From positions 1 to 31,342 of the IMG/VR virus record IMGVR_UViG_3300029319_000285: 31,342 nt of DNA; one strand, written 5' to 3'. The position numbers and the translations under genes are program-made. Origin of the DNA: a virus. The notes below the pieces were generated by a model that made no database searches, was not told the origin of the DNA, and saw only the letters and a list, made by a program, of their open reading frames with translations. Positions 3,177 through 31,226 of the stretch are shown here, one piece after another. Positions within the stretch are counted from its first letter, which is position 1. Each line of letters starts with the position of its first letter.

Positions 3177-3177
<1 letters not shown>
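3004..3177 (-). CDS. Candidate small basic protein (57 aa), unproven
   Basis: An ORF of 57 codons whose ATG overlaps the stop of the 1570-aa gene as TAATG, the same coupling seen at several real junctions here. Its first ~32 codons fill the gap before gp13; the last ~26 overlap the gp13 start out of frame. The product is rich in Lys and Arg (K-K-P-R, Y-K-R-K-R, K-K-T-R-R-T-R) with no recognised domain. No Shine-Dalgarno precedes it, and the 77-base overlap with gp13 argues against it. Treat it as a hypothesis; the alternative is an untranslated leader for gp13. Confidence 0.25.
3085..3105 (-). promoter_or_regulatory. gp13 ribosome-binding site and weak late-promoter-like TATA box
   Basis: On the minus strand the octamer TATAAAAG (3105-3098) matches 6 of 8 bases of the T4 late promoter core TATAAATA. 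It is followed by GGAAGAGGAG, a strong Shine-Dalgarno ending 8 bases before the gp13 ATG. If the box is a promoter, transcription would begin at about 3092, right at the ribosome site, giving a very short leader. The ribosome site is clear; the promoter is speculative. Confidence 0.35.
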
Positions 3178-7889
<4,712 letters not shown>

Positions 7890-28383: not shown

Positions 28384-29079
28384 ATGGCTTTACCAATCTT
28401 AAATACACCAGAATATGAAACAATGTTGCCATCCGGCATCTCTGTGGTTTACAGACCTTTCCTTGTCAAAGAGGAAAAAATTATGCTTACAATTAAAGAG
28501 TCTAAAAACCCAAAAGAAATTTTGAAGTGCATGTATAATGTGGTCAAAAACTGTCTTATTAGTGGGGCGGATGCAAAAGACTTAGGTTATAACGACGTTG
28601 AGCATCTTTTCATCCTGATGAGAAGTAGATCAGTCGGTGAGGCTGTTGAAATTAAACACGTTTGCGAGCATTGCGGTAAAGAGTTCCCCCTGTCTTTTGA
28701 TATTTCAAACGTGGGACTTAATAAAGAATATCCTAAAACAAACACTGTGATGCTCAATGAAACAGTTGGCGTTACAGTAAAGCCCATCTCCATTGTAGGG
28801 ATGTCGCAAGTAATTACAAAGATTGAATCAGATCCACTTGAAGTGATTAATTATGTTATTGAGACTGTTTACACTGAGGAGTCTGTTACAAAATTTGATG
28901 GACTTTCCGAGGATGAAAAAAGACAATTCTTGGAGTCTTTGTCTTTGGTGCATGTGAAAAAAATCATGTCTAAGTTTGAAGAGTATCCAAGATGCTGCAT
29001 TCGCGCACAGAGCGTGTGTCCACATTGTGGTGGAACGAACGAAATCTTGGTGGAGGGCATTGAGAATTTTTTTACCTAA
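28384..29079 (+). CDS. gp26: Baseplate hub / tail assembly protein (gp26-like)
   Basis: A 231-aa protein; T4 gp26 is 208 aa. The N-terminus (M-A-L-P-I-L-N-T-P-E-Y-E, then Y-R-P-F-L-V-K-E-E-K) is a strong match to gp26, which takes part in hub assembly. Two CxxC pairs, Cys94/Cys97 (C-E-H-C) and Cys212/Cys215 (C-P-H-C), could form one zinc site from distant parts of the chain. AAGGA lies 6-7 bases before the ATG. The gene ends in a run of seven T followed by ACC and the TAA stop, which would allow a -1 slip into the next ORF. Its place just before the tape measure suggests a chaperone role. Confidence 0.88.
   Translation: MALPILNTPEYETMLPSGISVVYRPFLVKEEKIMLTIKESKNPKEILKCMYNVVKNCLISGADAKDLGYNDVEHLFILMRSRSVGEAVEIKHVCEHCGKEFPLSFDISNVGLNKEYPKTNTVMLNETVGVTVKPISIVGMSQVITKIESDPLEVINYVIETVYTEESVTKFDGLSEDEKRQFLESLSLVHVKKIMSKFEEYPRCCIRAQSVCPHCGGTNEILVEGIENFFT
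29067..29073 (+). promoter_or_regulatory. Candidate -1 ribosomal frameshift site (T7)
   Basis: Seven T in the frame T-TTT-TTT (AAT TTT TTT ACC TAA in gp26) fit the slippery pattern X-XXY-YYZ. A -1 slip here continues TAC CTA AGC ATG..., entering the frame of the ORF at 29082 with no stop between. The fused product would be 292 aa. A GGAGGG lies about 10 bases upstream of the run (29052-29057), where an internal Shine-Dalgarno is known to stimulate -1 frameshifting in bacteria. Confidence 0.6.
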
Positions 29080-29081
29080 GC

Positions 29082-29261
29082 ATGGCACATGATTCACTTC
29101 AAGGACACATTCATACGAATTATCACTTGATGTTTAATGTGGGACTGAATCTGGACACGATTGAAAGAATGATGCCGTGGGAAAGACAAATTTATGTGAA
29201 TCTTTATATCAAGGAACAGCAGAAAAAGAAAGAAGAATATGAAAGGCACAAGTTGAAGTAA
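29082..29261 (+). CDS. Small tail-assembly ORF, probably the frameshifted extension of gp26
   Basis: A 59-codon ORF from the ATG at 29082, which lies 2 bases after the gp26 stop in the -1 frame. It ends exactly where the tape-measure gene starts (TAA then ATG). The product is helical, with E-R-M-M-P-W-E-R-Q-I-Y-V at residues 28-39 and a charged Lys/Glu tail. A short helical segment with a P-W-E-R or P-F-E-R phrase, placed right before the tape measure, recalls the T part of tail chaperones as I remember them. No Shine-Dalgarno is within reach of the ATG, so either coupling or, more likely, a frameshift from gp26 makes it. It is too short for most gene callers to keep. Confidence 0.7.
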   Translation: MAHDSLQGHIHTNYHLMFNVGLNLDTIERMMPWERQIYVNLYIKEQQKKKEEYERHKLK

Positions 29262-31226
29262 ATGGCTGATAGATCCATTATCGCAGATATGATTTCTGCA
29301 ATGGTAAACGACTCTGACAGTGGCTCGGCAAAGGACAACGCCGAAATCACCGGAAATATCATTGCGGACAAAATTAATCTTTCTGGGATTGGATCGACAG
29401 GGATTAGTGGTGTCCCTGTCACTGTGTCATATATGGATGCCGCCATAGTTCCGATACTAGAATCTATCGCACAACAACTAAGACCAAAAACCAAAGAGCA
29501 AAGAGAAGAAGAGTATGCAAGGATCACTTCGTCAATTATTGATGCCTTAGAGATTTTTCATAATAAAAACGTAGCCACCACTTTGCGAGTCAAGGGTGCG
29601 ATGAGTGGATCGGGAGGAGATGATCGTTCCGGTGAAGGTGGTTTCATCAAAGATGTTTTGGGTGCGTTTAATTTAGGCGGAAACTTTATCAAGGGTATTC
29701 TTGGCATTGGTGCTTTATCCCTTGCTCTCGTCGGGTTTGCATTTTCTCTCAAAAAATTGATGGAGGTTGTTGGGCTTGATTTTAGTACGCTGTTGTTATC
29801 AACAGTTGCCATTGGTGGATTCTTCTTATTGGTGCGGCAAATAGGTAAGGATTTTTCAAAGGTCTTAAAAGGTTCTCTTGGGTTCGCTGCCATTGCAGGA
29901 ACATTAGTTTTGTTTTCAGTCGCTTTGGCTAAATTTGCACCAATAGACTTTAAATCTGTTGCACTTGGCGCACTTGCAATCGGTGGACTATTCAAAGTCG
30001 TTGAGATAATTGGTAGGAAATTTTCAACCGTGATGAAAGGAAACATCGCGTTGGCTGGCATAGGCTTGGCGTTGATTCCCTTTGCCAAGGCAATGCAGAT
30101 GATGACAAAAGTAAATTTTAAAGCCGTGGGAGTTTTGGCTTCTAGTTTGATCACAGTTGGTTTGGCTGTCGCTGCCCTGACTGCCACCATCGCATCTGGT
30201 GTGGGCGGTCTTGCGGTCGCAGGTGCTATCGCTGCTCTGGCTGGTATTGGGGTTGCACTAATACCCTTGGCTTACGCCCTTGACTTGTTTGGAGAGGCGA
30301 GTAAAAAATTTGTGCCGCTGTTCAAAACTTTTGGCAAAGTGATCAAAGGCGTTATTGGAAAAATAGGCGACACATTTACAAGTATCTTGCAATCAGTTGA
30401 GGAATTTTCAAATAAGGTCAGTGTGAGTAATTTGACAGGTGCAGCCAGTGGGATCGGTGCAATTGCAGTGGCTCTTGGGGCTTTCGCTGGTGGTGATTTC
30501 CTCTCATCTGCACTCTCTATTGGTTCGTCCTTCATAGACTTCTTCACTGGCAGAGTGGGTAATGTTGAACTTCTTGGTATTTTAACTTTGTTCGGAGAAT
30601 CAGCCCCTCAACTTTTAAAAACAAATATTCAATTAGAACGTCTTTTAAACAATCTGACAAACATGGCGGGAGGCTTCAAGGGTGAATCTATTCAAAACTT
30701 GCTAACACTTCTTGAAGCACTGAAATCGGAAATACAAGTAACCGAAGGCTTCTTGGGTAAGGTGGCAGGTTTTGTTTTTGGTGGCGATGTAACAGCCTTA
30801 TCGGCACTAATCAAACTCGCTGAAATCTCACCCGATATTGATATTTTCTCCAAAGCAATCTTGGGTCTAACAGAGGCACTGGCTGGGTTGAATTTTGAAT
30901 CATCAGTTTTCAACGCACAGAAGTCTCTCGATGGTTTTGTTGATTATGTCATCGATAATGAAAATGATATTAATAGGGCTGCTGAAATTTTGAATCAACT
31001 CGGAAATGAAAACGCAGCAGCCGTCGCTCTTCAACTCGATGCTGCAAGAGCAGAGGCGGTGGCGGCTGAAATTGGTGCAGGATTTGATCAAGTTGCAAGC
31101 AGCATAAGTGTGATTAACCAAACAGCACCCACACAGATCAATAACAATGTTTCAACATCCTTGTCTGCCTCCACGAATGATATTGAGTTAGCCCACATCA
31201 TTGGTCACGGCACAGTCTTAGATTAA
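29262..31226 (+). CDS. gp29: Tail tape-measure protein (gp29-like)
   Basis: A 654-aa protein; T4 gp29 is 590 aa. The tape measure runs inside the tail tube and sets its length. Residues 1-130 are polar with a helical part (~60-105). Residues ~142-340 are strongly hydrophobic, with several membrane-like segments rich in Ala, Gly, Val and Leu, as tape measures have for insertion into the host membrane; they consist of four ~56-residue repeats. The second half (~345-620) is amphipathic and helical, ending in a polar tail. The gene starts directly at the stop of the 59-codon ORF and is followed by a terminator. Position after gp26 and the presumed chaperone supports the call. Confidence 0.8.
   Translation: MADRSIIADMISAMVNDSDSGSAKDNAEITGNIIADKINLSGIGSTGISGVPVTVSYMDAAIVPILESIAQQLRPKTKEQREEEYARITSSIIDALEIFHNKNVATTLRVKGAMSGSGGDDRSGEGGFIKDVLGAFNLGGNFIKGILGIGALSLALVGFAFSLKKLMEVVGLDFSTLLLSTVAIGGFFLLVRQIGKDFSKVLKGSLGFAAIAGTLVLFSVALAKFAPIDFKSVALGALAIGGLFKVVEIIGRKFSTVMKGNIALAGIGLALIPFAKAMQMMTKVNFKAVGVLASSLITVGLAVAALTATIASGVGGLAVAGAIAALAGIGVALIPLAYALDLFGEASKKFVPLFKTFGKVIKGVIGKIGDTFTSILQSVEEFSNKVSVSNLTGAASGIGAIAVALGAFAGGDFLSSALSIGSSFIDFFTGRVGNVELLGILTLFGESAPQLLKTNIQLERLLNNLTNMAGGFKGESIQNLLTLLEALKSEIQVTEGFLGKVAGFVFGGDVTALSALIKLAEISPDIDIFSKAILGLTEALAGLNFESSVFNAQKSLDGFVDYVIDNENDINRAAEILNQLGNENAAAVALQLDAARAEAVAAEIGAGFDQVASSISVINQTAPTQINNNVSTSLSASTNDIELAHIIGHGTVLD
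29685..30281 (+). repeat. Four ~56-residue repeats in the tape measure
   Basis: Units start near residues 142, 198, 254 and about 316. Each has F-x-K-V-(L/M)-K-G or a similar phrase, then a hydrophobic Ala/Gly stretch. The first three then carry a (D/N)-F at positions 174, 230 and 286, exactly 56 apart. I-G-G-F-F (184) and I-G-G-L-F (240) are also 56 apart. The fourth is shifted by about six residues (A-G-I-G-x-A-L-I-P at 265 and 327). Confidence 0.7.

Follow-up and report, generated by a model that had tools for sequence, protein, structure and literature searches.

Sequence comparison and prediction indicate that this marine T4-like virus very probably uses a single start codon to make both a short and a long tail assembly chaperone, the longer of which would be reached by a -1 programmed frameshift at the end of the gp26-like gene. 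The window, i.e. the whole stretch of DNA that was analyzed, comprises positions 1 to 31,342 of the IMG/VR record IMGVR_UViG_3300029319_000285 (31,342 nt, one strand). An earlier note on this DNA had proposed that such a frameshift joins gp26 to the small ORF behind it, and comparison with related sequences strongly supports the proposal, with 90 of 90 loci in agreement.

The gp26-like ORF (TAC-N, 28384-29079, on the plus strand like all features of the locus) encodes 231 aa and ends in ...NFFT followed by the stop codon TAA at 29077-29079. One codon ahead of this stop lies a run of seven T at 29067-29073, a slippery heptamer T_TTT_TTT that is in phase with the gene (aaT_TTT_TTT_ACC_TAA), correct to the base as it had first been described. 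Runs of six or more T occur 18 times on the same strand of the window, so that by chance about 0.004 in-phase runs should lie no more than 20 nt from any one stop codon. Ahead of the slip site, a TGA at 29061-29063 ends the preceding stretch of the -1 frame, and from 29064 this frame is open through the TAA at 29259-29261, with no intervening stop, as claimed. The only entry into it is therefore the 16 nt from 29064 to 29079, which hold the T7 run. The putative TAC-C domain at the C-terminal end of the long form (29064-29261) begins with EFFYLS-MAHDSL... and contains the small ORF of 59 codons (29082-29261), whose ATG is internal to this extension. A frameshifted product would have 292 aa, and the predicted lengths of both forms match those originally given. 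The next ORF (29262-31226, 654 aa) had been called the tape measure gene. Its ATG indeed follows directly on the small ORF's TAA, and by position only it probably encodes a tape measure protein; at E 0.1 it matched none of the Pfam families, and its single PHROG hit is of unknown function (E 0.09). Elsewhere in the window, on the minus strand (3177-7889), a predicted fibre-like protein of 1570 aa carries long GATGATGAT (Gly-X-Y) collagen-like repeats and matches the Pfam family Collagen (E 4e-6), the score falling slightly short of the curated cut-off.

The gp26-like ORF matches the T4 gp26 family, PF12322, with E 3.7e-46 and 158 bits (cut-off 24.5), and its residues 1-231 align to positions 5-233 of the phrog_150 profile. 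The small ORF matches phrog_634, the gp51 family (E 6.8e-15), and in addition the C-terminus of phrog_150 (positions 230-281, E 8e-5), so that in some members of this family the two parts form a single chain. T4 gp51 is such a member. Both T4 gp26 and T4 gp51 belong to PF12322; gp26 stops at position 235 of phrog_150 and is without the small-ORF domain, whereas gp51 spans positions 13-280 of 282, covers phrog_634 as well and has the domain fused in one frame. The small ORF had been regarded as the equivalent of T4 gene 51, which holds for the ~50 C-terminal residues of gp51 (249 aa) and not for the whole gene, the remainder being a paralogue of gp26. T4 thus has a separate gene for each form, gp26 being the short one and gp51 the long one, and therefore needs no frameshift. 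Genes 26 and 51 lie on opposite strands in T4; their copies in Klebsiella phage KP27 are neighbouring and in tandem.

A structural model of the gp26-like protein was obtained with AlphaFold from 45 sequences (window and IMG/VR) and reached a pLDDT of 93. For residues ~1-90 the two best VIA matches were 3fgx (Z 7.6) and the HK97 chaperone gp13, 2ob9 (Z 7.5), with the next match at 4.5. Foldseek gave a modest match to 2ob9 (probability 0.51, E 0.5), and a sequence search of the PDB with the gp26 profile returned chance hits only. The predicted N-terminal domain of gp26 thus resembles the HK97 tail assembly chaperone, which supports, and does not prove, a chaperone N-domain.

For comparison we assembled 90 loci consisting of the window, nine reference or single-cell phages and 80 uncultured viruses from an alignment-based scan of IMG/VR. 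All locus counts given here are counts of related sequences; clustering by gp26 identity reduces the loci to 56 groups at 70% and to 22 at 50%. Neither gp26 nor the tail tube protein nor the downstream ORF, each used as a single-protein query against IMG/VR, retrieved any relative, and the gp26 of the window is at most 35% identical to any sequence found. The virus belongs to a distant branch of the T4-like phages, and the conservation described here relates it to sequences no closer than 35% in gp26. Across the 90 loci the slip site is invariant. An in-phase T_TTT_TTN heptamer is found at the gp26 end of every locus, with C (72 loci), T (16) or A (2) as the last base, and the stop follows after one codon in 79 loci and after zero codons in 11. 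The codon preceding Phe-Phe ends in T at all 90 loci, compared with NNT-TTT at 67 of 193 other X-Phe sites in the same genes (Fisher p 6e-31, kinship not corrected for). The C-domain lies in the -1 frame throughout, and the alignment of marine T4-like relatives suggested in the earlier note thus shows both the heptamer and the -1 overlap to be kept. The phages Stenotrophomonas YB07, Vibrio CZ01 and Aeromonas 65.2 likewise have T_TTT_TTC and a C-domain in the -1 frame. When the -1 reading was taken from base 29064, tblastn matches in cyanophages started at residues 1-2, i.e. upstream of the ATG. In Pelagibacter phage Mosig the heptamer is kept and the zero-frame stop has shifted eight codons downstream, so that the slip site is separable from the stop. 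Homopolymer runs are prone to error, and faulty sequencing or assembly of the seven T might have split one gene in two, but the identical split at the identical place in 89 other loci, curated genomes included, makes such an artefact hardly credible.

A C-domain-like -1 ORF also follows gp26 in the Ackermannviridae Bue1, UPM2146 and phiA8-29 (L094, L095 and L096). The gp26 ends of these three have no canonical X_XXY_YYZ heptamer, the context being ATT TTC or CTT TTC, and they may use a different slip signal.

The C-domain might also be produced by stop-restart coupling, in which ribosomes that have finished gp26 at 29079 start anew at ATG 29082 and produce a separate protein of 59 aa. This ATG is a usable start that begins 2 nt past the gp26 stop, an ATG is similarly placed in a sizeable group of relatives, and a separate gp51 is annotated in GenBank for many cyanophages. 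However, the window sequence has no Shine-Dalgarno within reach of ATG 29082, as had been observed before, and the GGAGGG at 29052-29057 lies 24 nt upstream, which is too far to serve it. Relatives argue against a restart as well. Among 88 complete C-domains, an ATG precedes the conserved N-F-x-L-M-Q core in 48; the other 40 divide into 19 with GTG or TTG only and 21 without any of the three. Because no start codon precedes the core in these 21, an independent start of the C-domain is often impossible as far as the sequences tell. In the 18-locus AGTATGGC group, moreover, the ATG, where present, sits in the 5' arm of a stem. Reinitiation would also leave the invariant in-phase heptamer and the fused T4 gp51 unexplained. 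We therefore regard it as a very improbable account of the locus; it may act as a minor route. With a -1 frameshift as the preferred reading, gene calls in this group need correction: what is annotated as a 'baseplate hub subunit' with a tiny 'hub assembly catalyst' behind it would be one chaperone gene with two products, and annotations often overlook its second half or begin it too far downstream. The C-domain ORF is missing from the annotations of S-CAM4 and S-WAM1. The 'baseplate hub assembly catalyst' annotated in Mosig (L097) at 2564-2698 begins inside the C-domain, and the full -1 reading runs from the upstream heptamer.

The comparison further gave indications of RNA elements that might stimulate the shift. 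The GGAGGG of the window was measured at 9 nt before the T7 run, close to the 10 bases estimated at first. Where a Glu-Gly pair is encoded 9-10 nt upstream of the heptamer, the Glu codon is GAG in 52 of 71 cases, compared with 583 of 2088 for all Glu codons and 14 of 45 for other Glu-Gly pairs. Predicted pairing with the 16S 3' end, set against synonymous shuffles, had a mean z of -1.16 over the 90 loci and of 0.01 over 360 control segments, and the window element itself reached z -3.2 against synonymous-codon shuffles. This Shine-Dalgarno-like element is under synonymous-site selection and likely acts as a stimulator. RNA from ~5 nt past the heptamer folds more stably than expected, with a mean z of -1.8 against dinucleotide shuffles (controls -0.2 and -0.5) and of -1.7 against synonymous-codon shuffles (-0.3 further downstream). 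A stem with z below -1.5 is predicted in 48% of the relatives, with striking examples in S-WAM1 (-25.7 kcal/mol, z -5.9) and in one further locus (L067, z -6.6), and the stems differ between lineages. In the 18-locus group, 83.8% of stem cells pair, compared with 28-44% in slid registers, and there are a few compensatory changes. The window has no significant stem-loop starting 5-9 nt past the heptamer (z -1.2 to -0.1 by segment; z -0.7 against synonymous shuffles); a possible weak stem at 29086-29141 (CACAU/AUGUG plus inner pairs) is not significant against shuffles.

The T runs themselves are six T long in 73 of 89 loci and seven or eight in 16, the window having seven. Median stem energy is -3.0 kcal/mol at the T7/T8 loci and -7.7 kcal/mol at the others, nearly all T6C (p 4e-4, kinship not corrected for). 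The weaker stems at all-T runs are possibly a trade-off or a hint of another mode of slippage. They would fit, as would the homopolymer run as such, with RNA polymerase adding a U at the run, so that a fraction of the mRNAs encodes the fusion. Six T, however, which is all that most loci have, is short for polymerase slippage; the phase is always X_XXY_YYZ, and the upstream Shine-Dalgarno-like element together with stems at ribosomal spacing points to the ribosome. Transcriptional slippage is accordingly even a little less probable than a restart, and ribosomal frameshifting remains the favored reading. No correlation of Shine-Dalgarno strength with stem energy was found across loci. We tentatively suggest, while considering it somewhat doubtful, that across marine T4-like phages an invariant heptamer is combined with exchanged stimulators, i.e. 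upstream Shine-Dalgarno-like elements and non-identical downstream stems, and that the ratio of short to long form is tuned by such interchangeable RNA parts. Stems over the would-be start of the C-domain in one group and weaker stems at T7/T8 runs, including that of the window, would belong to the same, equally tentative picture.

Under the frameshift reading, most ribosomes would terminate at 29079 and release the 231-aa TAC-N (gp26). In a minority, tRNA-Phe in the P and A sites on T_TTT_TTT would slip back by one base, and these ribosomes would read on to 29261 and yield the 292-aa TAC-NC. Pairing of the upstream GGAGGG with 16S rRNA probably causes the ribosome to pause. What the sequences establish is the slip site, its frame, the conservation and the homology; the slippage itself and its rate in this virus are inferred. 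By analogy with lambda gpG and gpGT, TAC-N would coat the tape measure protein, the C-terminal domain of TAC-NC would recruit tail tube subunits, and the slip frequency would set the ratio of the two forms; these binding partners follow the analogy, and the downstream ORF would be the tape measure gene by its position.

The earlier note had also suggested that a real frameshift would give T4-like phages the G/GT logic of lambda. Conservation, the T4 gp26/gp51 duplication that mirrors the two forms, and the chaperone-like fold all support both the frameshift and this logic; what does not stand is its novelty. The abstract of the 2022 study by Vladimirov, Gautam and Davidson is said to name genes 26 and 51 and to state that several T4-like groups keep frameshifting, and Xu et al. 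reportedly surveyed the chaperone frameshift of long-tailed phages. Frameshifted chaperones in T4-like phages were described in that study (Virology, doi 10.1016/j.virol.2021.11.003), which is cited in PMC10885494 and PMC12846349, and the frameshift logic is therefore not new here. According to these two papers (on PRFect and phage Adele, respectively), some T4-like phages have separate short and fused long genes, and the latter paper summarizes poly-T -1 slip sites in T4-like TAC-N genes. A review of frameshifting from 2016 (PMC5009743) still listed T4 as an exception. This exception was settled in 2022, and the gain of our analysis is breadth and candidate stimulators; the Shine-Dalgarno-like element and the stem-loop are possibly additional to what was known of the T4-like frameshift.

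With the T4-like chaperones of 2022 the window shares the TAC-N gene, the poly-T -1 slip site and the -1 frame position of the C-domain; it differs in a gp26 of at most 35% identity, in its heptamer (T_TTT_TTT, where T_TTT_TTC is common) and in having no clear stem-loop. The E. coli dnaX gene similarly combines a heptamer with an upstream Shine-Dalgarno-like stimulator, and a downstream stem is predicted in about half of the relatives of the window; the dnaX heptamer, however, is the lysine A_AAA_AAG and its shift yields the shorter product. Lambda gpG and gpGT likewise are a short and a long chaperone made by a late -1 shift into a small second ORF directly before the tape measure gene (presumed in the window), although no sequence homology is shown and lambda has its own heptamer in place of T_TTT_TTT. 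Marine T4-like phages would thereby join the general tail-building logic of lambda. T4 has the same two forms, with gp26 corresponding to N and gp51 to N plus C, but makes them from separate genes, and its genes 26 and 51 appear to be a duplicated, frameshift-free version of the lambda-type logic.
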